NCBI RefSeq assembly: GCF_902762735.1
Contig: NZ_CACWPP010000011.1
Span: forward strand, 1 to 48,628
DNA: 48,628 bases
From: an uncultured Ruminococcus sp.
Lineage (GTDB): Bacteria > Bacillota > Clostridia > Oscillospirales > Ruminococcaceae
Reading direction: 5' to 3'
Shown: positions 3,292 to 27,353 of the stretch, piece by piece
How the letters are laid out: the number at the start of each line of letters is the position of its first letter
How positions within the stretch are numbered: position 1 is the stretch's first letter
The notes under the pieces: model-generated
The model's database searches: none
What the model was told of the DNA's origin: nothing
The model's input: the letters and a program-made list of their open reading frames with translations, nothing else
Made by a program: the position numbers and the translations under genes

Positions 3292-4401
3292 TTATTTATC
3301 GTTTTTCAGCTTTATGCGCCTTTCTGTCTCTTTGTCAAAAAGGTACACACTGCCGTATGGGATAGAGAATTCCAGCGCCGTATTTATTTCGGGAGACTCA
3401 TGCGGGTCTACCTTGAGTATGCTGTTGACACCATATATATCAACATACACATTTGTATTATCGCCCAGCAGTTCGACCAGTTCGACAACGCAGTTCATCT
3501 TGTAAGCGTTGCCGACCTCGTAATTGCTGTTGATTATGCGCACTGCCTCAGGTCGGAAACCAAGCACGACTTCCTTGCCTTCGTACTTTTCAAGCACTTC
3601 CCTGTCAGCCACATAACTCAGGTCGATGGGATTGTTGTTGATGTTCAGTACGCCGTTTTCTAAGCGGCTCTCTATGAAATTCATGGGCGGCTCACCGATA
3701 AAGCCTGCCACAAACATGTTTGTCGGGTTAAAATAAAGGTCATAAGGCGTACCCACCTGCTGAACATAGCCGTCTTTCATAACGACTATCCTGTCAGCCA
3801 TCGTCATAGCCTCAGTCTGGTCGTGAGTAACGTAGATAGTGGTAGCACCTGTTTCGCGGTGTATCTGAGTTATCTCAGAACGCATGGTAACTCTCTGCTT
3901 TGCATCAAGGTTAGACAGCGGCTCGTCCATCAGGAAAATATCCACCTTCCTGATTATCGCACGTCCCACAGCAACTCTCTGACGCTGACCGCCCGAAAGT
4001 TCTCTGGGCAGTCTGTCAAGATAGTCTGTAAGACCCAGTATCGCAGCCGTCGAATTTACCTTCTGCTCAATAACATCATCGTCAACGCCCTGAAGCGTCA
4101 GACCGAATGCCAGATTATCATATACCGACATGTGCGGGTACAGCGCATAGCTCTGGAAAACCATGGCAACACCGCGCTCACGCGGACCTTTTTCGTTGGC
4201 GCGTACACCGTCTATCAGGAAATCGCCCTTGCTTATGTTCTCCAGTCCCGCTATCATTCTCAGCGTAGTGGATTTGCCGCAGCCCGATGAGCCGACAAAC
4301 ACTATAAATTCGCCCTTTTCGATCTGCAAATTAAAATCATGCACAGCATGATAGCCGTTGGGATATATCTTGTTGATACCTTTTAAAGTTAAATAAGCCA
4401 T
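3292..4401 (-). CDS. Sugar ABC transporter ATP-binding protein, MsmK/UgpC type (first copy)
   Basis: This 369-residue ATPase energises a carbohydrate importer from the cytoplasmic face. It shows Walker A GSSGCGKST (38-46), a Q-loop in MVFQSYALYPHM, the signature LSGGQRQRVAVG, Walker B IFLMDEPLSNLD and the switch histidine in VTHDQTEA. A roughly 130-residue C-terminal TOBE-type regulatory region follows, as in MsmK and MalK. It stands apart from the permease genes, upstream of uxaB-uxaA, and a second ATPase of the same family lies at 15931-16989. It could be a shared ATPase for several importers. A long untranslated region precedes it. Confidence 0.92.
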   Translation of the reverse strand: MAYLTLKGINKIYPNGYHAVHDFNLQIEKGEFIVFVGSSGCGKSTTLRMIAGLENISKGDFLIDGVRANEKGPRERGVAMVFQSYALYPHMSVYDNLAFGLTLQGVDDDVIEQKVNSTAAILGLTDYLDRLPRELSGGQRQRVAVGRAIIRKVDIFLMDEPLSNLDAKQRVTMRSEITQIHRETGATTIYVTHDQTEAMTMADRIVVMKDGYVQQVGTPYDLYFNPTNMFVAGFIGEPPMNFIESRLENGVLNINNNPIDLSYVADREVLEKYEGKEVVLGFRPEAVRIINSNYEVGNAYKMNCVVELVELLGDNTNVYVDIYGVNSILKVDPHESPEINTALEFSIPYGSVYLFDKETERRIKLKNDK

Positions 4402-10440: not shown

Positions 10441-11838
10441 TCAGAGCCTCGTATAGGGGTAGAAGTCCTTTAAGTAGGCTTCGGTAGCGGCAAGCATCTT
10501 ATTGAACAGTTCTTTGCCCTGTGCCACTGTCAGGCTGCTGCAAAGGGGCTGGTTTATGAAAGCCTCGAATATCCTGTTGAGGTCGCGCGCTTTAATGCCG
10601 TAGTATGTGTTCTCGATATTTATGGCATTTCTTAGAACAAGTGCGTTAACATCGTTAGGGAGCGGCTTTGAAGTTACGGGTTTTAAGCTGTTGTGGGCGA
10701 ACACGCAGTTTGTCTCCACCACAGAACCGAGAGGCAGCTGAGGCATCTGACCGACGTTAACAACGTTGGCATTGGAGACCTTAGGCGGTATCAGACCCAG
10801 CAGTGCTTTCATCAGTTCAACAACTTCTTCATCGCTGTGTGAAACATCTATCTGCTCTTCGCCGTCAGCTATGCGCTGTGACTGTGCTATCTTATCGAGC
10901 CTGTCCTGCTTGCGGTATGCAACGGTAGTCAGGTGGAAGAGCCAGCTTTCGGCATCGGCTTTATCCTTTATGTACCAGCCGTTGTTCAGGAATTCTACAA
11001 GGTGTCTGTCACCTGCCGCCGCCAGCACGCCGAATCGTCTGAACAGATCCATCTTGACCTTATTGCCGTAGCGGAAAGGGTTATCGCGGAAATCCTGCGG
11101 CTGTGAGCCGACATGCTCACAGTAGCCCTGCTCGTAGAACTTGTCGATAAACTCGGGCAGTATCTTCAAAAGATCTGTGCCCTTGTAATTTGCTTCGGTT
11201 ATCCATGTAAAATGGTTCACGCCGCAGGCATCTATGATGATCTCACTGCGGTGGGGGCGGGGAACGCCCATCAGTTCATGGACTGCACAGCTTAGAAATT
11301 CCTGTGCGTGGAAAACTTCGTGACAGCAGCCGAATGCTTTTATCTCGGGGAAAACATCGTAGAGTGTTTTCGTGCATGCTGTCATGGGATTGGTGAGGTT
11401 TATGACCCACGCATCGGGGCAGTGGGCTTTTATCTCGCGTGCAAAGCCCTCGTATATGGGGACTGTGCGCATAGCCCTCAGCACGCCGCCCGGACCTACG
11501 GTATCGCCCACCGACTGGTAGATGCCGTACTCTTCGGGCAGGTGGACATCGCCCTCCATCTCATCGAAAGTACCCGGAAGGATAGAGCAGATGACGAAAT
11601 CAGCGCCGTCAAGGGCTGTGCCTATCTCGGGATAGACTTTGTAATCCCATTTTGAAATGGTGTTGGGGTGGGCGTTTATGCGCTCACCGATACGGCGGTT
11701 GAGTTCTGCGGCGGGCAGGTCTATATCATAGAGTGCTATCTCACCGCTGAGGTCTTTGGCAAGAGCTAAGTCTTTCATAAAAACGCGCGCCCATGCTTTT
11801 GAGCCGCCGCCGATATATGCGATCTTGATCTTCTTCAT
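10441..11838 (-). CDS. GH4 family glycosidase, probable alpha-galacturonidase
   Basis: This 465-residue NAD- and metal-dependent glycosidase begins MKKIKIAYIGGGS, the family Rossmann motif. It carries NLTNPM, the metal-binding Cys/His region GCCHEVFHAQ and GVNHFTW. Family GH4 includes alpha-glucosidases, alpha-galactosidases and alpha-galacturonidases such as B. subtilis LplD. The pectin context and divergence from the Agl/Mel types favour alpha-galacturonidase, releasing galacturonate from short oligomers in the cytoplasm. The start was set at 11838 because the family begins with this motif, although a longer in-frame ORF extends upstream. The ribosome site is weak (AAAGTGG). Confidence 0.85.
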   Translation of the reverse strand: MKKIKIAYIGGGSKAWARVFMKDLALAKDLSGEIALYDIDLPAAELNRRIGERINAHPNTISKWDYKVYPEIGTALDGADFVICSILPGTFDEMEGDVHLPEEYGIYQSVGDTVGPGGVLRAMRTVPIYEGFAREIKAHCPDAWVINLTNPMTACTKTLYDVFPEIKAFGCCHEVFHAQEFLSCAVHELMGVPRPHRSEIIIDACGVNHFTWITEANYKGTDLLKILPEFIDKFYEQGYCEHVGSQPQDFRDNPFRYGNKVKMDLFRRFGVLAAAGDRHLVEFLNNGWYIKDKADAESWLFHLTTVAYRKQDRLDKIAQSQRIADGEEQIDVSHSDEEVVELMKALLGLIPPKVSNANVVNVGQMPQLPLGSVVETNCVFAHNSLKPVTSKPLPNDVNALVLRNAINIENTYYGIKARDLNRIFEAFINQPLCSSLTVAQGKELFNKMLAATEAYLKDFYPYTRL

Positions 11839-11878
11839 AATTACCACTTTATATTTGTATTTCCCTTTAATTTGCATC

Positions 11879-11905
11879 GTTTCCCCCGCAAAATGCGGAG
11901 GAAAC
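11879..11905. other. Intercistronic hairpin between GH105 and GH4
   Basis: GTTTCCCCCGC (11879-11889) pairs with GCGGAGGAAAC (11895-11905) around a five-base loop, with one mismatch. It sits in the 94-base gap after the GH105 stop and before the GH4 start. No U-tract follows on the minus strand, so it is probably an mRNA-stability or processing element. Confidence 0.5.
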
Positions 11906-11932
11906 AACACAAGACAGGAAAGGGTCAAACGC

Positions 11933-13060
11933 TTAGTTTTTCTGTGTTCTCAGCACTTCTGTGTAGCAGAGCAGGAAAGGAGCAACGCCCTTTGCATCGT
12001 TCTCGACTACGGGTTCTGAGATATAGTACTCATAGCTTCCGTCACGGCGCTTGTTATCTTCGGGACCGAGACCTGCCACAAGGCAGATGCCGCCGAGATG
12101 AAGTTCTCCGTTTTCGCTGACGGTGAGGTACTTTTTACAGATGCCGTCAAAGGTATTTTTTCCCAGTGCGGCATAGCTTTCATCAATAACGCCCAGTCTT
12201 GCGCCTTTGAGCATCGCGTAGGCTATCATGCTGCTGCCGCTGGTCTCGAGGTAGTTGCCCTCTCTGCCGCCGCAGTCTGCCACCTGATAGTACATGCCTG
12301 TTTCAGGATCGGCATACTGTGAGATGCCTTTTATCACATCGCGGAACACCGAGATGAACTCATCGCGGTCCGAGCCGTCGGTATAGTCTATTATATCAGC
12401 CAGCGCAACTGTGAACCAGCCGATGGCGCGAAGCCAGAAGTTCTTTGAAAGACCTGTCTGCTTATCAGCCCAGAAAGCTGACTTTGAGCAGTCCATGCCG
12501 TGATAGCACAGCCCTTTTTCCTCGCTGAACATGTATTTGCGGACATTCTTTATCTGCGACATGGTATCGCTGAGACTGCCGCCGTTTTTCAGCTGATAGC
12601 GCACATAGAATACCTGCGCCATATAGATGCCGTCCAGCCATATCTGGTTCGGATATATCTTCTTATGCCAGAAGTTGCCTGTGTTTGTGCGAGGCTGTTC
12701 AGCTATCTGCTCATGCAGGCGTTCGATAGCTTTGAGATACTTCTCTTTGCCTGTCATATCGTACAGGTCGAACAGCACTCTGCCCTCGTTTATATCATCA
12801 AGATTGTATTTATCCTTTGAATAACCGAGTATAGAACCGTCATCACCAACGTAGTAGTCGATGAAATCGCAGACGAAATCGGAATACTTCTTATCGCCTG
12901 TTATCTCTGCGAAATTCAGCAGAGCGGTCATCATACAGCCGTCAATGTAATTCCAGTGAGCGGGTTTGCCCTGTCTGATGCTCTCGATATTCCACAGGGG
13001 CTTATCGGGAGTTGAACCTTTCAGCAGGCTGTCGATATATGCGTCAATATTTTCGTACAT
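11933..13060 (-). CDS. GH105 unsaturated galacturonyl/rhamnogalacturonyl hydrolase
   Basis: This 375-residue protein has the (alpha/alpha)6-barrel pattern of GH105 and resembles B. subtilis YteR. It removes the 4,5-unsaturated uronic acid from the non-reducing end of lyase products, giving DKI for KduI. The family catalytic aspartates fall at the same numbers as in YteR: Asp88 in YNLDDINEGR and Asp143 in QIWLDGIYMA. There is no signal peptide, so it works in the cytoplasm on imported oligomers. The ATG at 13060 has GAGGAG upstream, and GH28 ends two bases before it. Confidence 0.93.
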   Translation of the reverse strand: MYENIDAYIDSLLKGSTPDKPLWNIESIRQGKPAHWNYIDGCMMTALLNFAEITGDKKYSDFVCDFIDYYVGDDGSILGYSKDKYNLDDINEGRVLFDLYDMTGKEKYLKAIERLHEQIAEQPRTNTGNFWHKKIYPNQIWLDGIYMAQVFYVRYQLKNGGSLSDTMSQIKNVRKYMFSEEKGLCYHGMDCSKSAFWADKQTGLSKNFWLRAIGWFTVALADIIDYTDGSDRDEFISVFRDVIKGISQYADPETGMYYQVADCGGREGNYLETSGSSMIAYAMLKGARLGVIDESYAALGKNTFDGICKKYLTVSENGELHLGGICLVAGLGPEDNKRRDGSYEYYISEPVVENDAKGVAPFLLCYTEVLRTQKN

Positions 13061-13062
13061 AA

Positions 13063-14604
13063 TTACTCCTCAGTGAAACAGGCTACGCTGCGTGCTGTGA
13101 CTTCATCGCCGACACAGCCTTCTACCGTGACATTTCTCACGGTGAGTTTTCTTACATTTTCAAAGTAAAGACCAGCGCGGCACATTTCTACGGCGTTGTT
13201 CTTCATGGCGGGAACGCCCGATCTTGCGTTATCGGCATAAGTAAACTTTATGTTCTCGACTGTTATCTCGTCGATGGGCATTTCGGGCAGACCGTCGCAG
13301 TAGCATGCTGCCACATGGCAGTTAAGGCATTCCATATCGCGGAAAGTGAACTTGCCGAGATAGGGAGTTCTGTCATCGACGGGCAGTTTCTCACGGGTGG
13401 TGTTATACTCGGAATACCTGTCGGGGTCACAGCAGTTATACCACATGTTCATAACGATAGGTGTCATAACGCCGTCCATTTTTATGTCCTTGAACTCGAT
13501 GCCGTCTATAACAGCATCTTTGCCTCTTCCGCGGCGGGTCTTTATGCGAAGCCCTCTGTCGGTCTCTTTGAAGATACAGCGGCTGACTGACAAATTCTTG
13601 ACACCGCCTGCCATTTCACTGCCGAGAGTTATGGCGCCGTGACCGAACTGCATGATGCAGTTGCGGATAGTGTGGCGGTTGGCGGGCTGTTTGAACTTTC
13701 TGCCTATCTCTATCTTGCCTGACTTGATGGCTATGCAGTCATCGCCCACGCTGAAACGGCAGCCGACGATATTTACCGTATCGCAAGCCTCAGGGTCGAG
13801 GGCATCGGTATTGGGGCTGTCTTTCGGTGCGTTGACCGAGAGATCGAGGAACTGGAGTTCGGTGGAGAAGTAGGGGTGAAGCTGCCACGAAGCGGCGTTC
13901 TGCGCTGTTATGCCGTGTACAGTCACCAGTTTGCAGCGGTTGAAGAATATCAGTCGGGGGCGGGGAACTTCCTGATTTTTGACATCTACCCACCACTGAC
14001 TGTTCTGTGCGTTGCCGTCCACTGTACCTCTGCCGACTATCTTTATATCCTCAGCATATTCGGCAAAGAGAAGTGCCTGATGCATGGGGACGGCGTTGCC
14101 CTCCCATGTGCCGAAGTGGACTTCATCGCCTGTAACGAGGTCGGTGAGTTTGCCGGGTATCTTCGGGTATCTCGCCATATCCGCCGTACCCAGGAGAGTT
14201 GCCTTTTCGGTGAACTCGATGGTGATATGGCTTTTGAGGTTTATCGGCGCTGTAAGGTAAGTGCCTTCGGGGAAGCGAAGCCTTCCGCCTGCGGGCAGGC
14301 AGTTCACGGCTGTCTGGATACTGAGAGTATCATCTGTTACGCCGTCACCTGCCGCGCCGAAGTCTTTTACGCTGACAGCGGCTGTTTCTGCGGCAGTTTT
14401 AAAGCTGAGCGGATCGCAGCCTGTTACCTCCACCGTATAGTCGGTATCGGGGACAAGCTCGAAGAGGGAGAACACATTGGTGTTCCCGTGATAGACTTCC
14501 CTGCCGTTCAGCTTTACTGTATATTCGTACTTGTTAAAGTAGGCACTGTCATTGTCAAGCTCGAAGCATGCGCTGACAGAGCCTATGAATAATGCTTTTA
14601 TCAT
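13063..14604 (-). CDS. GH28 polygalacturonase with N-terminal Fn3-like region (probably exo-acting, cytoplasmic)
   Basis: Residues about 1-75 look like a fibronectin-III-type module, and about 78-513 form the GH28 beta-helix. All four GH28 motifs are present: NTD (265-267), the DD pair (288-289), GHG (321-323) and RIK (353-355). The Fn3-plus-GH28 arrangement is known in exo-polygalacturonases such as PehX-type enzymes. No signal peptide is seen (MIKALFIGSVSACFELDN lacks a cleavage pattern), so it should trim imported oligogalacturonides inside the cell. The start at 14604 is supported by AAGAGT upstream. Confidence 0.92.
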   Translation of the reverse strand: MIKALFIGSVSACFELDNDSAYFNKYEYTVKLNGREVYHGNTNVFSLFELVPDTDYTVEVTGCDPLSFKTAAETAAVSVKDFGAAGDGVTDDTLSIQTAVNCLPAGGRLRFPEGTYLTAPINLKSHITIEFTEKATLLGTADMARYPKIPGKLTDLVTGDEVHFGTWEGNAVPMHQALLFAEYAEDIKIVGRGTVDGNAQNSQWWVDVKNQEVPRPRLIFFNRCKLVTVHGITAQNAASWQLHPYFSTELQFLDLSVNAPKDSPNTDALDPEACDTVNIVGCRFSVGDDCIAIKSGKIEIGRKFKQPANRHTIRNCIMQFGHGAITLGSEMAGGVKNLSVSRCIFKETDRGLRIKTRRGRGKDAVIDGIEFKDIKMDGVMTPIVMNMWYNCCDPDRYSEYNTTREKLPVDDRTPYLGKFTFRDMECLNCHVAACYCDGLPEMPIDEITVENIKFTYADNARSGVPAMKNNAVEMCRAGLYFENVRKLTVRNVTVEGCVGDEVTARSVACFTEE

Positions 14605-14630
14605 TTCGGACTCTTTTCTTTATACTGTGC

Positions 14631-14656
14631 CTGATGCGGCACAAACGCCGCATCAG
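14631..14656. other. Perfect intercistronic hairpin between the transporter block and GH28
   Basis: CTGATGCGGC (14631-14640) and GCCGCATCAG (14647-14656) form a perfect 10-bp stem with a 6-base loop. It occupies the 62-base gap between the 215-residue membrane-protein gene and GH28. No U-run follows on the minus strand, so partial termination or 3'-end protection of the transporter mRNA is more likely than full termination. Confidence 0.6.
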
Positions 14657-14666
14657 CGCCTTATTG

Positions 14667-15314
14667 TCATTTCTTTTCTGCGGTGCGTGAGCTGAATGCG
14701 CCCGCATCGCGCAGAATGTTAACGAAAGTATTCTTCATTTTCACCAGAAGCAGGTCGAACGCCATATACAGCAAGCCGAACAGCATCGGCTCGACACCCA
14801 GCATCGCCTGTGCCTGTGACGGGTCTGTGGAAGCGTCAACGCCCGCAAGTCTGTTGACCGCGTAATAGGTCTGAAAAACAAGGAAAAGCACTGCGCCCGA
14901 GTAAATGACGTTTATGAAGATGGACCAGTACTTTCTGACTGTTACCATCTGCCATTTATCGTAGGCGCGTTCACGGGGTTCAAAATTGCGCAGAAGTTTG
15001 TTCACCATAAGGTCATTGACCACACCGAGACCTATGGCAAGCACAGCCATCAGGTCAAGCCCGTGGACATAAAGACCCAGACCCCAGAGGAAGAAATAGC
15101 ACACCGCGCCTGCGAACCAGAATTTCACAAAGACGATCTTCAGCCACGCGGGTATATTGAACTTGCCGCGTGAGGTGTATTTTCTTATCTCTTCATCGGA
15201 GACTTCGGGAGCTTTTTTGGTGCTTACCAATCTGTCTACCGCGCTTGTCTTGAGCTTGTAGTAGTCAGCCGCAGACTTTTCTGCGGGAATATTATTCTTG
15301 CTTTTCTTTTGCAT
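14667..15314 (-). CDS. Unknown four-helix membrane protein of the pectin ABC operon (215 aa)
   Basis: I do not recognise a family. A charged ~60-residue N-terminus (many Lys/Glu) precedes about four hydrophobic segments: WLKIVFVKFWFAGAVCYF, GLDLMAVLAIGLGVV, WSIFINVIYSGAVLFLVF and MLGVEPMLFGLLYMAFDLLL. The C-terminus is short and charged. It is the last of five small membrane proteins sharing an operon with a sugar ABC importer, and ends just before GH28. A role as an accessory subunit or assembly partner of the importer is inferred from position only. The ATG at 15314 follows GAGGGGT. Confidence 0.75.
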   Translation of the reverse strand: MQKKSKNNIPAEKSAADYYKLKTSAVDRLVSTKKAPEVSDEEIRKYTSRGKFNIPAWLKIVFVKFWFAGAVCYFFLWGLGLYVHGLDLMAVLAIGLGVVNDLMVNKLLRNFEPRERAYDKWQMVTVRKYWSIFINVIYSGAVLFLVFQTYYAVNRLAGVDASTDPSQAQAMLGVEPMLFGLLYMAFDLLLVKMKNTFVNILRDAGAFSSRTAEKK

Positions 15315-15337
15315 ATACAGACCCCTCTGTTTTCAGC

Positions 15338-15916
15338 CTATCCCTCGCCCGAAATATCTATCGCCGCCATACTGCCGTTGCCCTCGACTTCGATGGAGGT
15401 ATTTATCTTACGTATAGCCTTAGAATAGAAAGGCAGCAGCACCAGCAGAACAGCTGTTATGCCGACACATATAACGTGTGCGGAAACTACGCTTTTTGCG
15501 GTGTTGATGTACTCTGAATCTGCCCTGACTTCGATGGGGTTGACCTCACGGGTGATCGCATCGGTTATGCGGCTGATATAAACACAGTCAACGCCTATCA
15601 GCAGTGCCAGCATGAAGAACAGCAGACCCAGCATGACTTTATTTGCGGGCTTGCGGCGCTGGAACGTCCGCAGGAACACAACGAATGCCAGTATTGAGAA
15701 CAGCATCGCCGCAAATTCACACTGACCCATGTTAGCGCCGTTTATCCTTGCGGTGGTATTTGCTATCGAAGAAAGGTTCAGCGAGTAGATAAAGAATGCT
15801 GCCACAAGTGCTGTCAGCGGGATATTCTGGGGCGAGCGCTTTAGCGATACCATTGATTTGCGCAGCGCCTCTTTTATACCGCGGTTCGGTCTGCCTGCGG
15901 TTTTCTGATTTGCCAT
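15338..15916 (-). CDS. Unknown four-helix membrane protein of the pectin ABC operon (192 aa)
   Basis: No family was recognised. After a basic N-terminus with RPNRGIKEALRKS there are about four membrane segments: IPLTALVAAFFIYSLNLSSI, CEFAAMLFSILAFVVFL, MLGLLFFMLALLIGVDCVYI and AHVICVGITAVLLVLLPFY. A hydrophilic loop lies before the last helix, and the tail is acidic. It sits between the ATPase (14 bases upstream) and the 215-residue membrane protein (23 bases downstream), with a GGGAGGT ribosome site. It resembles its neighbours in size and layout, suggesting a common purpose. Confidence 0.75.
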   Translation of the reverse strand: MANQKTAGRPNRGIKEALRKSMVSLKRSPQNIPLTALVAAFFIYSLNLSSIANTTARINGANMGQCEFAAMLFSILAFVVFLRTFQRRKPANKVMLGLLFFMLALLIGVDCVYISRITDAITREVNPIEVRADSEYINTAKSVVSAHVICVGITAVLLVLLPFYSKAIRKINTSIEVEGNGSMAAIDISGEG

Positions 15917-15930
15917 CTGAAGAACCTCCC

Positions 15931-16989
15931 TTATCTTATGGCTTTGGTGGTCTCTTTATCGAAGAAGTGTTTTCTGTCGAATGAGACTTTGACTTCGTCG
16001 CCTGCCTTATAGTTGCACCAGCCGCGGAACTTGCAGGTGATCTTATGCTTGCCTGTTGTGCCGTTTACCAGTGTATTAAGACCCAAATTCTCGTTTGAGA
16101 ACACATTTACTGTGATATTGCCGCGTTCAACGACATTTTCGGGACGAACGCCCATTGTTACTACCTTGCCCTCGTAGGGTGCGAGCATCTCTTTTTCTTC
16201 GGGGGTGAGGTCAACGGCGAAGTCGCTGTTGATAGCCTGACCGTCGCAGATCTCCACATCGAACAGGTTCATCGGCGGCAGACCTATGAAACTCGCCACA
16301 AAGAGATTTGCGGGGGTATCATAGAGTTCCAGCGGAGTACCTATCTGCTGTACATGACCCATAGACATGCACACTATCCTGTCTGCGAGGGTGAGCGCTT
16401 CGGTCTGGTCGTGGGTAACGTAGAGCATTGTGGCGTTGAGGCGCTTATGGAGGAGAAGTATCTCTCTTCTGGTGGCGCTTCTCAGCTTTGCATCAAGGTT
16501 TGAAAGCGGTTCGTCAAACAGGAACACCTTAGGACGGCGGACTATCGCGCGTCCCATCGCGACTCTCTGGCGCTGACCGCCCGAGAGCTGTCCGGGCTTC
16601 TTGTTGAGCTGGCTGGTGAGATCGAGGATCTCAGCAGCAGCAAGTACTTTGCGGTGTATCTCATTTTTATTCTCCTTGCGGAGCATCAGCGAGAACGCCA
16701 TGTTCTCGTAGATGGTCATGTGACCGTACAGCGCATAGTTCTGGAAAACCATAGCTATATCGCGGTCTTTAGGGGGCATGCGGGTGACATCTTTGCCGTC
16801 GATGATGAGGTTGCCGCGTGATATATCCTCAAGACCTGCGACCATTCGCAGTGTTGTGGATTTGCCGCAGCCTGACGGTCCTACAAGGACTATCAGCTCA
16901 CCGTCTTTAACATCGAGGTCAAAGTCATAAACTGCCTGCACCTTATTGTCATATATTTTTTCGAGATGCTGTAATTTAAGATCACTCAT
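15931..16989 (-). CDS. Sugar ABC transporter ATP-binding protein, MsmK/UgpC type (second copy)
   Basis: This 352-residue ATPase lies inside the transporter operon and should drive the adjacent permeases. Visible motifs are Walker A GPSGCGKST, MVFQNYALYGHM, the signature LSGGQRQRVAMG, Walker B VFLFDEPLSNLD, VTHDQTEA and a C-terminal TOBE-like region. I chose the ATG at 16989 (product begins MSDLKLQHLEKIYD) because AGAGGG lies upstream. A longer in-frame ORF to 17028 would run deep into the preceding gene. The chosen start overlaps the upstream stop by eight bases, indicating translational coupling. Confidence 0.93.
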   Translation of the reverse strand: MSDLKLQHLEKIYDNKVQAVYDFDLDVKDGELIVLVGPSGCGKSTTLRMVAGLEDISRGNLIIDGKDVTRMPPKDRDIAMVFQNYALYGHMTIYENMAFSLMLRKENKNEIHRKVLAAAEILDLTSQLNKKPGQLSGGQRQRVAMGRAIVRRPKVFLFDEPLSNLDAKLRSATRREILLLHKRLNATMLYVTHDQTEALTLADRIVCMSMGHVQQIGTPLELYDTPANLFVASFIGLPPMNLFDVEICDGQAINSDFAVDLTPEEKEMLAPYEGKVVTMGVRPENVVERGNITVNVFSNENLGLNTLVNGTTGKHKITCKFRGWCNYKAGDEVKVSFDRKHFFDKETTKAIR

Positions 16990-17497
16990 CGTCTGTTCCC
17001 TCTTGTTTATTTCTTTCAAGCTCTGCAATATAGCCGTTAAGCGTGGTCGTTTTCATAAAGCCTATGACACCTGCCGCTATAAGCAGTACCGCAGATACTA
17101 TCAGGCAGATCGTAACATACCTGAACTGACCCGTACCCATAACGGTCGCCTGTTTTGCATCAGCGACGGGGTTTGCGTCTCTGTGCGCCTTCATGGGCAG
17201 GTAGAATATCCTTCCCACCTGGAGGACACCGATAAGCACTGAGGTAAAGGCATAGCTGAGCTTATAATTTTTGATGCCTTCCGATGAAAGGAAGGCGACG
17301 AGCATAAATACTAAGTTATATACTATCGAAGCACCGATGAAGAGCTTATAATAGTAACTGCCCTCATCTGAGCTATATATACTGACGAAGTAGAGCGCAT
17401 TAGCGGCTATCGCACCGAGGATAAGGTTTGCGGACAGCTTGTTTTTGGTAAAGCGCAGACGGTCTTTTCGGGTCTGTGCATCATTATTTACGGGCAT
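16982..17497 (-). CDS. Unknown four-helix membrane protein of the pectin ABC operon (171 aa)
   Basis: No family was recognised. The product starts MPVNNDAQTRKDRLRF and has about four hydrophobic segments (LSANLILGAIAANALYFVSI, LFIGASIVYNLVFMLVAFL, YAFTSVLIGVLQVGRIFYL, YVTICLIVSAVLLIAAGVI) and a charged C-tail. The ATG at 17497 has AAGGAG upstream. An earlier in-frame start at 17527 lies inside the previous gene and lacks a ribosome site. One base separates it from the 198-residue gene, and its stop overlaps the ATPase start, so the three are tightly coupled. Confidence 0.75.
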   Translation of the reverse strand: MPVNNDAQTRKDRLRFTKNKLSANLILGAIAANALYFVSIYSSDEGSYYYKLFIGASIVYNLVFMLVAFLSSEGIKNYKLSYAFTSVLIGVLQVGRIFYLPMKAHRDANPVADAKQATVMGTGQFRYVTICLIVSAVLLIAAGVIGFMKTTTLNGYIAELERNKQEGTDDE

Positions 17498-17498
17498 G

Positions 17499-18095
17499 TC
17501 ACACACTCCTTCCCTTGCCGATGGCATTCTGCTCTGCCTTCATCACGAGGATTTTCATGATCATATTGATGACCAGCAGCACTGCTGTCAGTATAAGAAA
17601 ACCGAACACAGCGTAGCTGATGTCGAACCAGAAAGTATCTTCGGGTCCTATGTAGAGAGTTCCCCAGTCTTCGGAGAAAGCCTTCAGTGCCTCAAAGTCA
17701 ACTTTTTGCTGATACTGCGACTTATAGTCCATTATCTGAGGTATCGCCCAGACAGCAACGCCTATCGAGGAGACTGTGAAAAGTCCTGTCGAGATGTAGT
17801 TGCCCGAGTAGTACTTTCTTCTGACATTGGTATTGGTTATGAAAAGAAGCACTGCAACGAGTATCAGTCCTATGCTGACCTTAGTGAAGGTCTTGTTAAA
17901 GGCGAACATATCGTAATATACTCTTGAACCGGCAACTGATGTCTGCTCAAGATCGTAATCGGGGTATAGGATCGTTCTTGCGAGGGCATCGTACAGATCG
18001 GTAGACATGCCCAGCGAATATACGAATACAAGTGCTGCTGCGATAAGTGCCAGCATACACATGATTTTCTGAAAAAGCATTTGTTTTTTGTACAT
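17499..18095 (-). CDS. Unknown four-helix membrane protein of the pectin ABC operon (198 aa)
   Basis: No family was recognised. There is one N-terminal membrane segment (IMCMLALIAAALVFVYSL), an outside loop rich in Tyr and Asp (residues about 30-68), two central helices and a last one (YAVFGFLILTAVLLVINMI). The loops YDALARTILYPDYDLEQ and SEDWGTLYIGPEDTFWF are large for such a small protein and could face the binding protein. It is the first gene after the solute-binding protein, with an AAAGGGG ribosome site. Confidence 0.75.
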   Translation of the reverse strand: MYKKQMLFQKIMCMLALIAAALVFVYSLGMSTDLYDALARTILYPDYDLEQTSVAGSRVYYDMFAFNKTFTKVSIGLILVAVLLFITNTNVRRKYYSGNYISTGLFTVSSIGVAVWAIPQIMDYKSQYQQKVDFEALKAFSEDWGTLYIGPEDTFWFDISYAVFGFLILTAVLLVINMIMKILVMKAEQNAIGKGRSV

Positions 18096-18125
18096 AAGTA
18101 CCCCTTTATGTTCAAGGGAAACTTC

Positions 18126-18151
18126 GTATCGGGCGGAAATTCGCCCGATAC
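18126..18151. other. Hairpin downstream of the solute-binding protein gene
   Basis: GTATCGGGCG (18126-18135) pairs perfectly with CGCCCGATAC (18142-18151). An outer AAGGGA/TCCCTT pair can extend it. It lies in the 118-base gap between the binding-protein stop and the next gene. Stems in this position in ABC operons often cap the binding-protein mRNA so that it accumulates over the membrane subunits. That role is inferred here. Confidence 0.6.
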
Positions 18152-18213
18152 AGTCCCTTTATTCACATAATTTCTTCCGCGCTAAAATTATTCGCGGTCA
18201 GCTGTCGGTAAGA

Positions 18214-20430
18214 TCAGCCGTTGATGGTCTTGTAGAAATCAAGCAGTCTGTGCCATGCTTCGTTTCTTCTGGTCAGGTAAGTTGTGCCGCCCCAGCCGCC
18301 GTCTGCAACGGTATCGGATACCTTCTTTGCAGTAGCTGCCGCATCGGGACCTGTCTCGCCTGTGAAGCCCTTAGCGATGATGTCAACGTAGAGGTTGGAC
18401 TGCTCCTTGCCCTGACCGAACGAACCTGAAGCGCTCAGTGCTGTCAGCTCGTTGATAGCGTTAGACTCAGCAACTTCCTGAGGAAGAACGGTAGGAACAG
18501 AGGTGTACCATGAGTTGTCAGCTATTGCCAGCTCAGGGTGCTTGATCGTGCCCAGTGCGACTGCGTTGGAGATGTGGCCTGCGCCCTCCTTGCCGACTTC
18601 GTGTGTACACTGGAACTCGAATGCCTGGCTCTTTACGAAGCTCAGGGTAGAACCGATGTAGTAACGGGCATAGTTGGTGTAGTTGCCGTTCTGGAGTTCC
18701 CACAGGTCGTTGTAGGACTGGTCGGAAACAACGGGCCACTCCTTGCCGTTGAAGGTGAATGTTACAACGTTGCCGTTGTCATCGTGCTTAACGAAAGCAT
18801 CAGGACCGTAAGACATCAGCACCTGACCCTCAGGGCTGTAAGCGTAGTCGATAAGTCTCAGGCAAGCGTTGAGCTTGTCGGTATTATCGCCGACACCCGC
18901 AGCGGAAATTCCCCAGCCATCGACCTTAACAGATCTCCAGGACTCGGTAAATCTCATGTACTTCTCTTCGCCGTCATTCCACTTGGCAACAGGTACCATA
19001 ACTGCCATGTACTTTTCGCCCGCAGCGTTATCAAGTGCGGTAGCGTTGTAAGCGGTCTGGGTCTGGTTGTAGTCATAGTGCATGAAGCCGTTGTCATCGG
19101 ACAGGTACTTCTCACTGTTTACATCTTCGGAATTGATGAAGCCCTTGGAGATCAGACCCTCAGATGCGAGGTCATGCATCTTGGAAAGTGCCTCGTAAGT
19201 CTCAACTTCGTTTCTGGAGTCGTGGAGTTCGCCGTCAGTACCTACATAGAGGTAATCAAGTCTTGACTCCATGCCGCGTATACCGAAGAGAGTGCCTGCG
19301 AAACGATAGAGGTCAACTCTTCTCTGGTTATTTGCATCTTCTCTGGAGAAGAGACCCTGTACGCTGTCAGTGCCGTTGAGTGTGGGAGCGTTGGAGACCA
19401 CGCATCTCAGCAGAGCGGTCAGCTCATCAGCGTCCCATGCGGCATTCTGACCGATGAAGAGGTCAGCACGGTTTGTGCCGTAGTAGCCGTCATAGGTCTT
19501 GTCGATATACTCACGGAGCATATTTACAGCTTCAACGCCGTCCATAGAGCCCTTAGCGTTCATCTTGTCAACGATATTGCCGTAAGCGTCATAGTTCTTG
19601 GTAACAGTTTCAACTGCTGTGCCCTCAGCGTTTACGACATCAACATCAACAGTACCAGATGTTGGCATATAAGGAGTATAAACGGGGTCAGCAGTCTTGC
19701 CGCTCTTGTCAGCGGTGAACTCGCCCTCGCCGTTGAGCAGTTTCTCTACCCAGTCTGTTCTCATAAGGGGCATACGCTCGATGTCGTTTACACCGTCGAA
19801 GTAGGGCGAGAAGTAGATAGCGCCTGCATTAGGGCCTGCCGCTGCGCCTGTGATGGACAGTCTTACGATGGGGTTAGCGTCGAGATACGCCTTAAAGTTA
19901 GGCATTTTATCGAGGTACTGAGCCAGATTTACCAGCTTGCCCTGCTGACCGTTTTCTGACAGCAGTGTGGCAGTACCGCTGAGCATATCTACCTGATCCA
20001 TCTGAGCGTCCCAGTACTGGTATTCATCAGCGGCGCTGTTGCCCTGATACTTGTCTTCGATCTTTATGTCAAACAGTTCTTCAACTGCCTGCCATGTGGG
20101 CTTGAGGTCGCCCGAATTATAGGTCTTGCCGTCTGCAAGGGTGATGCCCTCGCCTGCAAGGTCAGCGGTGAAGCTCATACCTGTCTTATCGCTGTTGTAG
20201 CCGCAAGCCATTCTCAGTACTGTGCCCGGTGCTACGGGGAGCAGCTCGGTAGTATCTACTGTTGTGGTAGGCTGTTCGCCCGGTTCAGCGGTATTGCCGT
20301 TTGCAGTTGTAGTACCGCCGTTGCTGTTTGCAGTGCTGTTATCACTGCTTGTGCTGCCTCCGCAGCTTGCCATAGCAGTTGCCGCCATTATTATAGACAG
20401 GACTGCGGCTGTGAGTTTTGTGCTTTTCAT
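18214..20430 (-). CDS. Lipoprotein solute-binding protein of the pectin/oligogalacturonide ABC importer
   Basis: This is a 738-residue extracellular binding protein. The signal peptide ends in a lipobox (MASC, Cys23), followed by a Ser/Thr/Asn/Gly-rich linker, so the protein is lipid-anchored outside the membrane. The body resembles the family-1-type binding proteins that pair with LplB/LplC permeases (AYSPEGQVLMSYG near the end is typical). Usual members are about 500-560 residues, so this one is unusually long and may bind a larger oligosaccharide. AAAGGAGG precedes the ATG at 20430. Confidence 0.9.
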   Translation of the reverse strand: MKSTKLTAAVLSIIMAATAMASCGGSTSSDNSTANSNGGTTTANGNTAEPGEQPTTTVDTTELLPVAPGTVLRMACGYNSDKTGMSFTADLAGEGITLADGKTYNSGDLKPTWQAVEELFDIKIEDKYQGNSAADEYQYWDAQMDQVDMLSGTATLLSENGQQGKLVNLAQYLDKMPNFKAYLDANPIVRLSITGAAAGPNAGAIYFSPYFDGVNDIERMPLMRTDWVEKLLNGEGEFTADKSGKTADPVYTPYMPTSGTVDVDVVNAEGTAVETVTKNYDAYGNIVDKMNAKGSMDGVEAVNMLREYIDKTYDGYYGTNRADLFIGQNAAWDADELTALLRCVVSNAPTLNGTDSVQGLFSREDANNQRRVDLYRFAGTLFGIRGMESRLDYLYVGTDGELHDSRNEVETYEALSKMHDLASEGLISKGFINSEDVNSEKYLSDDNGFMHYDYNQTQTAYNATALDNAAGEKYMAVMVPVAKWNDGEEKYMRFTESWRSVKVDGWGISAAGVGDNTDKLNACLRLIDYAYSPEGQVLMSYGPDAFVKHDDNGNVVTFTFNGKEWPVVSDQSYNDLWELQNGNYTNYARYYIGSTLSFVKSQAFEFQCTHEVGKEGAGHISNAVALGTIKHPELAIADNSWYTSVPTVLPQEVAESNAINELTALSASGSFGQGKEQSNLYVDIIAKGFTGETGPDAAATAKKVSDTVADGGWGGTTYLTRRNEAWHRLLDFYKTING

Positions 20431-20521
20431 AACTGATCCTCCTTTTAGGATTCCTTCCGTTTGTTGGCTAAATAGCCTTGTTTTTATATCAGACGCTTAC
20501 AGCGTTTGACCGTACATATTA

Positions 20522-21418
20522 TTATTCCTTTACGCCGCCGACGTTAACGCCCTTAGCAAAATACTTCTGAATGAACGGGTATATGACCAGTATCGGTATT
20601 ATGGAACATACGATAAGTGCATATATGACCGAATCGGGAGCATATGTGTGGCTGAGCTGCCAGTTGGTGGTGCGCTCGGGGTCGGAGTACTCCTCCAGTC
20701 TGAGTCGCATGTACACCTGCAAAGGCTGTTCGTTGGTGCTGGAGATCATCTGTCTTGCCCAGAAGTAGCCGTTCCAGCGGGATATTGCGAAGAACAGTGC
20801 CACTGTTGCCAGTATGGATTTGCTCATCGGCAGGTAGACCTTGCTGAGTACCTGAAGTTCGGTAGCGCCGTCAACGATGGCGGCTTCTTCGATCTCGGAG
20901 GGAACGCCTTCAAAGGCATTTCTCAGCAGTATGATGTTCATAGCCTGCATGCCCATCGCGATAACTACCAGCCACTTGTCGTCCATTATGCCGACACCCT
21001 GGAACACGCGCTTTGTAGCCAAGTAGTTGAGGTACTGGGGTACAAGACCTGCGCTGAACCACATAGTAAATACCAGGAAGAAGTTGAAGCCCTTGCGGAA
21101 CAGCAGACGCTTCTTTGAGAGAGCGTATGCGCCGAAGATGGACAGTACCATCTCCCAGATAGTGCCGTAGAATGTGAGGAACAGGGTGTTTGTGTAGGAG
21201 TTCCAGAACACGTTGTCGTTGAACACATCTTTAAATGCATCGAACTGGACGTTCTTAGGGAACAGGACTATCGTTGAGTCCCTGACCTCAACGTATCCGC
21301 TGATAGCAGAGGACACGGTATAGACGAAGGGGTAAAGACATCCGACCGCGAACATGGTCAGAAGCAGGTAGCTCAGCAGTTTGAAAATGAGTTCGGATAT
21401 TTCTAGTTTTCTTTTCAT
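20522..21418 (-). CDS. Carbohydrate ABC transporter permease, LplC/YtcP type
   Basis: This 298-residue inner-membrane subunit has about six helices and the cytoplasmic EAA loop EIEEAAIVDGATELQVLSKV, which contacts the ATPase. The N-terminus begins with KLEISELIFKLLSYLLL. It pairs with the LplB-like permease 12 bases upstream, and the binding protein follows after 91 bases. LplB/LplC/YtcP-type systems commonly import uronate or complex oligosaccharides, which agrees with the neighbouring pectin enzymes. The ATG at 21418 has AGAGGT upstream. Confidence 0.93.
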   Translation of the reverse strand: MKRKLEISELIFKLLSYLLLTMFAVGCLYPFVYTVSSAISGYVEVRDSTIVLFPKNVQFDAFKDVFNDNVFWNSYTNTLFLTFYGTIWEMVLSIFGAYALSKKRLLFRKGFNFFLVFTMWFSAGLVPQYLNYLATKRVFQGVGIMDDKWLVVIAMGMQAMNIILLRNAFEGVPSEIEEAAIVDGATELQVLSKVYLPMSKSILATVALFFAISRWNGYFWARQMISSTNEQPLQVYMRLRLEEYSDPERTTNWQLSHTYAPDSVIYALIVCSIIPILVIYPFIQKYFAKGVNVGGVKE

Positions 21419-21430
21419 GGGGCTACCTCT

Positions 21431-22495
21431 TTAATAAAGTGATACATCGGAAGCCTTGCGGGATATGGTGTTCGCACCGATGACCAGCAGCATTCCTATA
21501 ACATTATTCATCATTTCAGCCGCAGAAGCCATACCCTTCAGCGAGCCTGCGATACCGTTGCGCTGTGCGAAAGTTGAAACAACGTCTGCGGTCACATAAG
21601 TGTCGGGGTTGTAGAGCAGCAGTACTTTTTCGTAGCCGATGTTCAGCAGTGAACCTATCCTTGTTATCAGCATGATAACGATGGTAGAGAGTATGCTGGG
21701 CAGTACGATGTATCTCATCTGCGCCATTTTGTTTGCGCCGTCGATCTGAGCGGCTTCATAGCTTGTGGGTGAGATGGCGATTATCGCGGCGAAGAACACT
21801 ATGCTGTCGTAGCCTGCGCTCTCCCAGATGCCGCTTATCTGGTATATCGCCCTGAAAAAGGCGGGGTTATTGAGCATGCCCGCGTATGCAGTCTCAGTGG
21901 AGATAAGTCCCACAGAAGAGAGCATGTGTGCAACGACACCGGGCTGCATGCCTGTTGAGTCTGAACCCTGCTTTACAAGCATCATCACCAGCGATGTCAT
22001 AACGACTGTGGACATGAACTTAGGCAGGTAAGTAAGCACCTGATAGACGCTTCTTGCGATGTTCGAGCGGATCTCGTTGAAGAACAGCGCGATTATTATG
22101 GGCATCGGGAAACCGAAGAGCAGACCGTAGAAGCTCAGCAGGAACGTATTTCTGAAAGCTCTCCAGAACTGCGATGAAAGTTCGGTATTGCCTGTGCCTG
22201 TCAGCAGTGTCCTGAAATAGGAGAAGCCTGAGTAGTACTGGTCTGCGACGGGCTTTGCGTCCTCAGTAAGTTTGAAGCTACCCAGCAGTTCGTACATCGG
22301 GAAATATCTCCAGAGCAGGAACACGAGTATCATCGGTACCAGCATCAGGTACAAGCGCCAGTCTTTGGCGACTGTACGCGCCACATTCAGCCAGTGGTGT
22401 TTTTCAACATCGTCACGGACCAGCTGTTCCGGATTTTCGATGTATGTACCGCTTTCCTCATCAAAGATGAGATAGTCAGCAGCATTGATCGTCAT
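21431..22495 (-). CDS. Carbohydrate ABC transporter permease, LplB type
   Basis: This 354-residue permease has about six helices and the EAA motif SYEAAQIDGANKMAQMRYIV. A soluble N-terminal extension of about 45 residues (MTINAADYLIFDEESGTY onwards) precedes the first helix and is longer than usual for the family. I chose the ATG at 22495 because GGGAGG lies about eight bases upstream; a longer in-frame ORF to 22528 overlaps the preceding gene. It is the partner of the LplC-type permease and the first core subunit of the transporter operon. Confidence 0.92.
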   Translation of the reverse strand: MTINAADYLIFDEESGTYIENPEQLVRDDVEKHHWLNVARTVAKDWRLYLMLVPMILVFLLWRYFPMYELLGSFKLTEDAKPVADQYYSGFSYFRTLLTGTGNTELSSQFWRAFRNTFLLSFYGLLFGFPMPIIIALFFNEIRSNIARSVYQVLTYLPKFMSTVVMTSLVMMLVKQGSDSTGMQPGVVAHMLSSVGLISTETAYAGMLNNPAFFRAIYQISGIWESAGYDSIVFFAAIIAISPTSYEAAQIDGANKMAQMRYIVLPSILSTIVIMLITRIGSLLNIGYEKVLLLYNPDTYVTADVVSTFAQRNGIAGSLKGMASAAEMMNNVIGMLLVIGANTISRKASDVSLY

Positions 22496-22524
22496 TTTGT
22501 AAAACCTCCCATGTTCTTTTATCC

Positions 22525-23142
22525 TCAAAACAATTCAGAGCTTTCGCCGTATCGGGTATCGCCCTCTTTCGGCATCATGCTTTTCTGCCTTTCGGACTGT
22601 GTGCGCACCAGATAGTCTATCTGGTCTTCAAACAGACCGTCGATCTTACGCGCCAGCTGTACTGCCACTACCGTGAACAGCAGTGTCAGCGAATCGGTGG
22701 CAAAAAGCTGTACGATGTCTTTGGCTGTGCCGCCCATCAGCATGCCCACCAGCCACCTGCCCAGCTGGGCTGATACATAAGCTGTCAGCGTGAACAGCAG
22801 TGTGAGCTTTGTGCTGTTTCTGACCTCTGACTTCTTCAGTTTTCGGAAGAACAGCAGTGCTGTCAGTGCGAAGCAGGTGCCCGCGCAGTAGACTGCGTAC
22901 TGTTTCGGCTCAGCGCCCAGCGCCGCACACATCGCAAGGCTTCCTCCAACGGCGTGTACTGCGGCGTATCTGCCCCAGCGCATCATCACGATACAGACCA
23001 GCGCCATCGTGGGTGACAGCACATAGATCTCATCAGGAAACCATGACCTTGCCGCGTGTGCTATAAGGGCTTCCGCACCTGTCAGTATCAGCAGCATCAA
23101 ACCTAAGTCTATTGCCCTGTATTGCTTTAAAGATAAATTCAT
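22525..23142 (-). CDS. Unknown six-helix membrane protein, first gene of the ABC operon (205 aa)
   Basis: No family was recognised with confidence. About six hydrophobic segments are seen, including LGLMLLILTGAEALIAHA, SPTMALVCIVMM, YAVYCAGTCFALTALLFF and TLLFTVVAVQLA, and a hydrophilic C-tail of about 40 residues. The FPDEIYVLSPTMALV segment and the overall size vaguely recall S-components of ECF transporters, but this is not secure. It leads the transporter operon, with the LplB-type permease 29 bases downstream. The ribosome site is AGGGGAA. Confidence 0.75.
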   Translation of the reverse strand: MNLSLKQYRAIDLGLMLLILTGAEALIAHAARSWFPDEIYVLSPTMALVCIVMMRWGRYAAVHAVGGSLAMCAALGAEPKQYAVYCAGTCFALTALLFFRKLKKSEVRNSTKLTLLFTLTAYVSAQLGRWLVGMLMGGTAKDIVQLFATDSLTLLFTVVAVQLARKIDGLFEDQIDYLVRTQSERQKSMMPKEGDTRYGESSELF

Positions 23143-23246
23143 TTTTTTGTTCCCCTAACATGCCGATCTTTCCTGCATTGGCTGAACTTACAGCTTATCA
23201 GCTAAAATAATATAAAATTTTTCAAATCGGTGTGTTTTCTTTATAT

Positions 23247-23276
23247 ATTTTAACCTATGTTAGCCACAATTTACAA
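23247..23276 (-). promoter_or_regulatory. Candidate promoter of the transporter operon
   Basis: On the minus strand TTGTAA (23271-23276) and TAAAAT (23247-23252) are spaced by 18 bases, about 105 bases upstream of the first transporter gene. An inverted repeat TAAC-CTAT-GTTA (23251-23262) overlaps the -10 side and could be a regulator site. Apart from this promoter and a palindromic element, 23143-23817 is AT-rich and I see no gene in it. Confidence 0.4.
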
Positions 23277-23752: not shown

Positions 23753-23817
23753 TTTATGGTCATTCCCCGACGGCGGCGGGCGGTGACATGCACATAAATG
23801 CAATAATATTAAACTTT

Positions 23818-26013: not shown

Positions 26014-26916
26014 TCACGCGAAGCGCCGCATCAGGCTGCCGCACTCGTCCGCAGTGAGCATTTTCGCCCAGCCGACTCTGCCTGCGGGGATATTTCCGTA
26101 TTCGGCGAAGCGGGCGGTCTTGTCACGTTCCGTATCGTTCCATTTATCAAAGCCTTCAGGGGAGATATGGCTGTCATAAGTACAGCCGATAAAACTGCAT
26201 TTGCCGTAGTCGCGCCAGGGTCTTGCGAGGAACACCGCGCCGTCTGCCACGCCGTTTTCGCGGGTGAAGCGGCACTTGTCGAACACAAAGCCCGTCTGCT
26301 GTGACAGAGCGTGGGCGGGTGCGGCTGTGAAGCCTCCTCCGCGAACGTCCCTTACCGAGCGTATCTCGCAGTTTTCAAACAGTGCGTCGCCGCAGCCGAA
26401 GATAAAATCCACATTGCCTGCGATAAGGCAGTTTGTGAAGCGCTGAGCGAAGCCGCCCGAAGCGCGGAGCTCGTCTTTCAGGAAGCCCTTATAGCGGGCT
26501 ATGAGGTCATCGGGAAGCGGACCGCAGAATACCGTATCCTGCGTTGACAGAAAATTACAGTTCTCGGCAGAAAAGCCGTCCGCCACTATGCTGAGTGCGA
26601 CTTCCTGCCCCTTTATCTCGGGCGAGCCTGCATCATTCTCAACAGTCAGATCTTTAAAGCGCACATCATTTGCCAGCACTGCGGCTGTGTATGTGCGGAA
26701 AGTGTTGTACTCAACACCTTTTTCGTCCTTCTTTTTGGCGTAGTCGCCGTAAACTATCCTTGTCCTGTCCGCGCTGCCCGCCAATTCTATGTCGGGCGTG
26801 CATATCTCGACTTTCTCGCGGTAAACGCGCGGTGCAAGCACCAGCCTTGTATGCGGTCTGACTTTCGCCAGCGCATCGGCAAGACTTTCGGTCGGTGACA
26901 GTATTATCTCCTTCAT
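26014..26916 (-). CDS. Pectinesterase (CE8), apparently cytoplasmic
   Basis: This 300-residue beta-helix esterase removes methyl groups from pectin-derived galacturonate chains. The CE8 catalytic set is visible: QDT (126-128), GNVDFIFG with Asp170, and ARPWR with Arg232. I set the start at 26916 (product MKEIILSPTE), where GGAGGG lies seven bases upstream; a longer ORF to 26970 has no ribosome site. No signal peptide is present, which is unusual, since most characterised CE8 enzymes are secreted. The protein probably demethylates imported oligomers. The AraC gene follows in the same direction. Confidence 0.92.
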   Translation of the reverse strand: MKEIILSPTESLADALAKVRPHTRLVLAPRVYREKVEICTPDIELAGSADRTRIVYGDYAKKKDEKGVEYNTFRTYTAAVLANDVRFKDLTVENDAGSPEIKGQEVALSIVADGFSAENCNFLSTQDTVFCGPLPDDLIARYKGFLKDELRASGGFAQRFTNCLIAGNVDFIFGCGDALFENCEIRSVRDVRGGGFTAAPAHALSQQTGFVFDKCRFTRENGVADGAVFLARPWRDYGKCSFIGCTYDSHISPEGFDKWNDTERDKTARFAEYGNIPAGRVGWAKMLTADECGSLMRRFA

Positions 26917-27353
26917 AATTACCCTCCTGCACCCTCTTATCTGCCATACGACGGCACTGCGCGGGCACACACCCGCCGTGCGCGTCGGTATGAGATAGGA
27001 AATAAGGTGGAAATATATAAAATACAGTCATAAGCATACGTATATCTGCGAATGTGCATGTGCTGTTTTGTACATGTGAAAATCGGACATTTTTGGCAAG
27101 TGCGCCGTATTATTATTTGAAACGGTGCAGTATTTCGCAATTAATGTTTTGACATTTGCAATTTATCTTACATATATGGTATACAGTCCATATTCAATTT
27201 TGCAAGTATAGAATTTTTTTAAACTTGAAAACGTTTGAGAGCAGTTTTCATTTATTGCTTTTTAGCCCTAAATCAGGCGTTTACGATAAATTCCCTCAAG
27301 TTTTTTTGAGTATATCATTAAATAATATTCAAGTCAAGTGTTTTGACTGATTA

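Follow-up and report, generated by a model that had tools for sequence, protein, structure and literature searches.

A conserved operon of an uncultured Ruminococcus joins an LplB/LplC-type ABC importer core to five membrane proteins without an assigned family and is linked to a second dedicated ATPase

The stretch of DNA analysed here (the window: 48,628 nucleotides (nt) of an uncultured Ruminococcus sp., contig NZ_CACWPP010000011.1 of assembly GCF_902762735.1) carries on its minus strand, between positions 14667 and 23142, an operon in which the genes of an ATP-binding cassette (ABC) importer of the LplB/LplC type alternate with genes for five small membrane proteins, here named A to E. We lean towards the view that this operon, together with a further ATPase gene of the window, K2, encodes one ten-protein importer for pectic oligo-uronides, with A–E as integral subunits. 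The gene content and order of the operon, the linkage of its genes in the loci examined, the dedication of the two ATPases K1 and K2 to it and the kinship of its core with an alginate importer are documented below.

Results

Layout of the operon

The genes of the operon were found where an earlier, sequence-only reading of the window had put them, on the minus strand. The features that matter for the argument are as follows.

22525..23142, minus strand: A, 205-residue multi-helix membrane protein (open reading frame (ORF) list, structure model)
21431..22495, minus strand: LplB-type permease, transmembrane domain 1 (BPD_transp_1; PDB relative AlgM1)
20522..21418, minus strand: LplC-type permease, transmembrane domain 2 (BPD_transp_1; best PDB relative AlgM2)
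18214..20430, minus strand: substrate-binding protein (SBP), a 738-residue lipoprotein (AlgQ1 relative; lipobox-like N-terminus)
17499..18095, minus strand: B, 198-residue four-helix membrane protein; its two external loops have about 40 residues each
16982..17497, minus strand: C, 171-residue four-helix membrane protein
15931..16989, minus strand: K1, dedicated MalK/UgpC-type ATPase (over the UgpC cut-off; motifs intact)
15338..15916, minus strand: D, 192-residue four-helix membrane protein
14667..15314, minus strand: E, 215-residue four-helix membrane protein, extended at its N-terminus by about 55 residues
13063..14604, minus strand: GH28 polygalacturonase, no clear signal peptide (family search)
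11933..13060, minus strand: GH88-fold (GH105-type) unsaturated uronyl hydrolase without signal peptide (Glyco_hydro_88)
10441..11928, minus strand: GH4, probable alpha-galacturonidase (Glyco_hydro_4)
3292..4401, minus strand: K2, a further dedicated MalK/UgpC-type ATPase with 47.5% identity to K1
26014..26970, minus strand: pectinesterase without signal peptide (family search, crude hydropathy)

Along the minus strand the genes follow one another in the order A, LplB, LplC, SBP, B, C, K1, D, E, GH28, GH105, with spacings of 29 nt (A–LplB), 12 (LplB–LplC), 91 (LplC–SBP), 118 (SBP–B), 1 (B–C), 14 (K1–D), 23 (D–E), 62 (E–GH28) and 2 (GH28–GH105), and an 8-nt overlap of C with K1; the 1-bp gap and the 8-bp overlap with the ATPase quoted in the sequence-only reading are thus exact. 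Longer ORFs are listed for both C and LplB, for which we chose the start codons ATG 17497 and ATG 22495, respectively, each preceded by a Shine-Dalgarno-like sequence. No RNA family reached its gathering score within positions 11000–26500, and promoter and terminator scans of the locus gave results near chance. The same reading had called the importer genes proper a standard set; this does not hold, as even apart from A–E the set includes two dedicated ATPases. It had overlooked both the second of these, K2 (3292–4401), and the pectin/galacturonate setting of the operon.

Distribution and linkage

A contig-collection scan with the E profile, which by design covers copies that contain E, gave 144 relatives, 80 of which were analysed. 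All nine genes A-LplB-LplC-SBP-B-C-K1-D-E are present in one order and on one strand in 59 of these 80 loci. The remaining 21 are truncated at a contig end and begin inside the cassette: in 20 of them no more than 321 nt separate the first gene from that end, and locus L094 starts at D. An internal gap was found in none of the 80. The records that carry the cassette bear the names of Ruminococcus-like and Lachnospiraceae-like Clostridia, Erysipelotrichaceae/Solobacterium and Spirochaetes, and many of the bacteria come from gut or rumen samples. One further carrier, L066, with E 59% identical, is labelled Bacteroides sp. and is probably a mis-binned contig.

Among 61 relatives, A, C and E each match the same five, the window's own genome and 4 of 28 genomes of the same genus; the eleven-gene order is maintained in these five where contigs permit, and LplB is 97% identical in one of the same-genus relatives (G024). 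In a sample of the class E was found in 3 of 291 genomes, B in 5 of 291 and A, with a profile of 25 rows, in 2 of 291, and in a sample of the phylum D was found in 1 of 299, the window's own; neither the A nor the D profile found a copy outside known cassettes in these 291 and 299 genomes. Two of the five B matches were weak and were dropped as chance, one in G316, where the ORF begins, as judged by eye, like a helix-turn-helix regulator, and one in G280, where none of the other four profiles matched nearby at better than E 1. G248, which belongs to another family, retains the complete eleven-gene order, with 28–35% identity for A–E, 56–57% for LplB and LplC and 75% for K1. In G321 (loci L021 and L031) B, D, E and K1 are present on short contigs, with LplB at a contig end.

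Because the same 5 of 61 genomes share A, C and E, and 59 of 80 loci keep all nine genes in one order on one strand, A–E are not chance neighbours of the transporter genes. The sequence-only reading had looked for repeated co-occurrence with LplB/LplC-type permeases across Ruminococcus. Within the 80 loci this co-occurrence is seen in every case that the contig permits (59 loci complete, 21 truncated), but the cassette is not general in the genus, being found in 5 of 29 same-genus genomes. The opposite pattern, A–E usually occurring without an ABC transporter, was not seen in the loci examined where the contig reached far enough.

The transporter core and its closest relatives

In comparisons with the PDB, AlgM1 is the only relative of LplB at E 0.001 or better (E 1.1e-65), AlgM2 is the best of five relatives of LplC (E 4.2e-76) and AlgQ1 is the sole relative of the SBP (best E 3.2e-8). 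By sequence the core is thus closest to the alginate importer AlgM1/AlgM2/AlgQ1, and AlgM1-AlgM2-AlgS-AlgQ1/Q2 of Sphingomonas sp. A1 contains the closest solved relatives of LplB, LplC and the SBP. The SBP, which has the lipobox-like N-terminus of a lipoprotein, matches no Pfam family up to E 1, and its homologue in locus L028 is 964 residues long. Two MetI-type permeases with a BPD_transp_1 domain, an extracellular SBP and a MalK-type ATPase place the system among the CUT1 importers of the AlgM/Lpl branch. Type I (CUT1) importers usually have a single kind of ATPase and lack additional membrane subunits; compared with this make-up, five extra membrane genes and the pair K1 and K2 are genetically linked here, their status as subunits being our interpretation. 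The alginate importer carries polyuronide cargo, and its ATPase AlgS works as a homodimer, as opposed to K1 plus K2 here. The A–E profiles match no chain of the alginate importer entries, so that this importer was crystallised without A–E.

LplB/LplC-type permeases are also found in the YtcQ-YtcP-YteP and LplABC importers of B. subtilis. YtcQP-YteP takes part in the use of polygalacturonan and rhamnogalacturonan (PMC5730181). The energy for these importers comes most probably from the multitask ATPase MsmX (PMC5730181, PMC7658222), and the MsmX2LplCBA and MsmX2YtcQPYteP models of PMC11466899 list no further subunit. The B. subtilis importers most probably share one ATPase, whereas in the present system K1 and K2 are both dedicated and five membrane proteins are added.

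Two dedicated ATPases

K1 scores over the UgpC family cut-off, and K2 was classed as MalK/UgpC-type through its similarity to K1 and to generic ATPases. In a tree rooted on five generic ATPases, K1 (79 sequences, support 0.95) and K2 (36 sequences, support 1.0) form separate clades. This suggests that the motor is a heterodimer; on the simplest reading, K1 would pair with K2 beneath a single pair of permeases. Both ATPases are tied to the cassette. Orthologues of at least 89% identity to K1 and at least 83% to K2 occur only in the five cassette genomes of the 61; the others reach at most 59% for K1, and none of the 56 non-cassette relatives has an orthologue of K2 (best match 61% over part of the length, 52% over the full length). 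K2 is present in 75 of the 80 cassette genomes, in 37 within view of the locus and in 38 of the other 43 elsewhere, where the matches are 72–97% identical. It lies within 60 nt of the cassette in 11 of 80 loci, after E in nine and before A in two; in the window it is about 10 kb from E. Every K1 and K2 sequence has the Walker A, Q-loop, signature, D-loop and H-loop patterns, and the Walker B pattern occurs in 78 of the 79 K1 and 35 of the 36 K2 sequences. Apart from K1 and K2, the genome encodes a generic MsmK-like ATPase (G000:C91).

Five membrane proteins of separate families

None of the five proteins of the window scores over the cut-off of a curated family in Pfam, NCBIfam or PHROGs; 25 homologues each of A and E gave single-member matches to Pfam only, at E 0.011 or worse, and the A–E profiles found no convincing relative in the PDB (best E 0.043). 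DUF624 (YesL/YteU-type) proteins are associated with pectin operons, and PF04854 (DUF624) is absent from the Pfam match lists of A–E up to E 1. The earlier statement that these proteins cannot be assigned to any family is therefore borne out, and clear matches to unrelated known families, which it had named as grounds against a new system, were looked for and none were found. Descent of A–E from one another was rejected, all ten hhalign pairs having probabilities of 3.3% or less; by profile comparison they are five separate families.

In averages over 25 homologues per protein, four hydrophobic segments are seen in B and C, together with a positive-inside charge pattern predicting N-in/C-in topology; D has four segments (the first reported twice) and an acidic C-terminal tail, and in E the first two segments merge in the hydropathy plot. 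Structures were predicted for A and E. The E model has four long helices, a mean pLDDT (predicted local distance difference test score) of 78 and no listed structural match above probability 0.18. The A model (pLDDT 91) has five long helices and short ones, and one helix of 31 residues may be two, so that the label 'six-helix' is plausible. Of the four four-helix proteins and one six-helix protein of the sequence-only reading, the four helices of B, C, D and E therefore stand, and the six of A are plausible rather than settled.

Charged residues conserved in at least 92% of 25 sequences per protein lie within predicted membrane segments, the borders of which are approximate, in A (E24, R55, R129, D150), C (R96), D (D110) and E (K59, K64, D101, D187); these could pair between subunits. 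The internal loop of B is conserved to 84% on average and its external loops to 59–62%. Over the 61 loci with all nine genes, mean identity is 79% for LplB, 81% for LplC, 79% for K1, 66% for the SBP and 46–53% for A–E. Mirror-tree correlations (0.60–0.91) were not taken as evidence because any co-inherited operon would show them.

A possible fold likeness of A to S-components

Comparison of the A model with the PDB by Foldseek gave as best match an S-component of energy-coupling factor (ECF) transporters, 5edl (probability 0.99, TM scores 0.49/0.51, E 0.074), followed by the S-components 3p5n (probability 0.80) and 5jsz_C (0.21); among the 50 matches listed of 147 no other exceeded 0.18. As the E model has no match above that value, the result for A is not simply generic for helical membrane models, with the caveat that the E model is the poorer one (pLDDT 78 against 91). 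Membership of A in the S-component family PF12822 was rejected by sequence (hhalign probability 0.5% or less, in a comparison for which 11 of 30 fetched S-component loci passed the ORF filter), and A is not among the PF12822 matches of the window's own genome (G000). S-components carry an AxxxA-like motif in helix 1; in helix 1 of A no small-xxx-small pair occurs in at least 8 of 25 sequences. We consider a fold likeness of A to S-components possible on the strength of the model, and not membership. ECF transporters, composed of S-component, EcfT and EcfA/EcfA', have two unlike ATPases and thereby resemble a system with K1 and K2, and the best fold matches of A, though weak (E 0.074), are their S-components; they differ from the present system, which has MetI-type permeases and an SBP and in which A has no sequence relation to PF12822.

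Related importers do without A–E

Relatives of LplC are present in 26 of 31 relatives searched. Around other LplB/LplC-type importers (43 loci with 696 ORFs, comprising 15 larger regions and 28 short loci that partly overlap them) the best match to any A–E profile was at E 0.048. Other importers of the group therefore do without A–E, in agreement with the sequence-only reading, according to which importers of this class need none of them: none was found around the 15 other regions. Another LplB/LplC-type operon of the same genome (L166, G000:C5) has a 209-residue Yip1-family membrane protein (12061-12690) beside its permeases, and thus differs in having one extra membrane protein, of a known family; among the best three matches listed per profile no A–E match in this region was better than E 0.5. 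An NHL/TPR protein also lies beside the permeases of that operon.

A pectin locus

The surroundings of the operon are a pectin/galacturonate locus. Downstream lie genes for GH4, a KduD-like short-chain dehydrogenase, 2-keto-3-deoxy-6-phosphogluconate aldolase, a PfkB-family kinase, a TIM-barrel protein and a KduI-family protein, and beyond these K2 and then UxaB- and UxaA-like genes; the names KduD-like, UxaA-like and UxaB-like are our reading of Pfam domains. Upstream are an AraC-type regulator and the pectinesterase. The gene at 11933..13060, whose family match is Glyco_hydro_88, we take to be of the GH105 type, and the GH4 enzyme (10441..11928) presumably acts on galacturonides. By a crude hydropathy measure GH105, GH4 and the pectinesterase have no signal peptide. 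The pectinesterase (26014-26970) is therefore probably cytoplasmic, and we infer that partly esterified oligogalacturonides enter the cell before they are cut and de-esterified. In locus L028 a gene similar by eye to this pectinesterase (17670-18638) adjoins the cassette.

Discussion

How might such an importer work? We suggest that the large lipoprotein SBP would capture long, partly methyl-esterified oligogalacturonides outside the cell and deliver them to a translocation path formed by LplB and LplC, with K1 and K2 side by side beneath the permeases as a heterodimeric ATPase and A–E packed around the permease pair as integral subunits. The external loops of B would probably dock or orient the SBP, and the N-terminal extension of E and the conserved C-terminal tail of D would probably contact the ATPases or cytoplasmic enzymes. 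Once inside, the sugar would be de-esterified and cut by the pectinesterase, GH28, GH105 and GH4, and the products would enter KduI/KduD-like and UxaA/UxaB-like routes. The physical complex, the pairing of K1 with K2, the substrate and the role of each extra protein are what we infer in this scheme, and the role assigned to each of A–E is a guess; the conservation of the B loops and the membrane charges of A, C, D and E are hints that A–E are subunits.

Several observations weigh against this proposal. Co-occurrence would also fit a separate membrane complex under shared regulation. B has no conserved membrane charge in its 25 sequences, and A was not found in G321 with the 25-row profile, although it may have been lost in assembly there, as LplB lies at a contig end. 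With respect to the motor, K2 was not found in 5 of the 80 cassette genomes, and two of the 38 matches outside the locus have an in-frame stop; the catalytic motifs of both K1 and K2 are intact, so that neither offers a degenerate site as proof of pairing, and either might work as a homodimer. With respect to the substrate, the N-terminus of GH28 is borderline by the hydropathy measure, GH28 and GH105 are out of view in 17 of the 80 loci, at least three of which end at or just after E, and some cassettes adjoin unrelated genes, so that context alone cannot fix the substrate, the range of which may be wider than pectic fragments. Loci L100, L104, L107, L110 and L111 have no GH28 or GH105 in view, and some of them lie, as judged by eye, beside glucuronate-isomerase-like or housekeeping genes.

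Could A–E instead make up a membrane assembly of their own, which shares the regulation of the transporter but stands outside it, such as an uptake sensor, a membrane anchor for the cytoplasmic pectin enzymes or a unit handling the methanol or acid load? This would agree with the lack of A–E in other LplB/LplC-type importers of the group and with their faster evolution (46–53% mean identity as compared to 79–81% for LplB, LplC and K1), and A, with its weakly S-component-like fold, could bind a small ligand of its own. We nevertheless think it rather unlikely, since the genes are interleaved with the core in one order and with overlaps, even where GH28 and GH105 are out of view, and since A–E were not seen without LplB/LplC in the examined loci where the contig reached. 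A–E might also be chaperones that help an uncommonly large SBP and the permease pair to assemble or to stay stable, without being present in the working transporter; this would suit small polytopic proteins encoded with so long an SBP (738 residues, and 964 in L028). However, the retention of five unrelated families for one chaperone job is hard to explain and the closest solved relative, the alginate importer, was crystallised without them, so that we give this explanation little credence. Hardly any credence is due to the view that the extra genes are unrelated hypothetical genes lying in the operon by chance, for which there is nothing beyond the absence of known families; it is contradicted by a nine-gene order and strand found in 59 of 80 loci, the rest being cut by contig ends, in records of three bacterial groups.

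A further alternative concerns the motor only and is compatible with A–E as subunits: K1 and K2 may each pair with themselves, the two homodimers driving the one permease pair under differing conditions, or K2 may serve another importer of the cell. The intact motifs of both ATPases and the distance of about 10 kb between K2 and E in the window speak for it. Yet K2 orthologues occur in 75 of 80 cassette genomes as opposed to 0 of 56 non-cassette relatives, K2 adjoins the cassette in 11 of 80 loci, and the genome has its own generic MsmK-like ATPase, which makes this alternative a serious one that we regard as less than probable.

Returning to the ten-protein importer, it is tempting to see in it a new class of ABC importer, in which MetI-type permeases and an SBP, known from maltose and alginate importers, are combined with a heterodimeric ATPase and an S-component-like subunit, reminiscent of ECF transporters, and with four four-helix subunits for the uptake of long polyuronides, and whose cassette reaches distant bacteria as a unit, by descent or by transfer; we put this forward tentatively and with considerable doubt. 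Literature searches, to which most subscription journals were closed, found no description of such a set; the core is already known, and within the coverage of these searches the ten-part set is not. The textbook type I ABC importer has five fixed parts. In the present system a type I core is tied to five membrane proteins without known family and to a second dedicated ATPase, and the conservation of the set in related bacteria suggests an import machine larger than the textbook kind. If A–E are subunits, five unannotated families would gain a function, a possible route of long charged pectin chains into such bacteria would come to light, and the contribution of extra subunits to an ABC importer could be tested directly.

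Other features of the window

Upstream of the pectin locus, positions 32998-38160 hold what we take, from our own reading of the sequence, to be an iron-sulfur operon with SufC, SufB, SufD, SufS, SufU and an Rrf2-like gene. A putative ORF at 31340-31831 contains RKPS repeats and a proline-rich tail.

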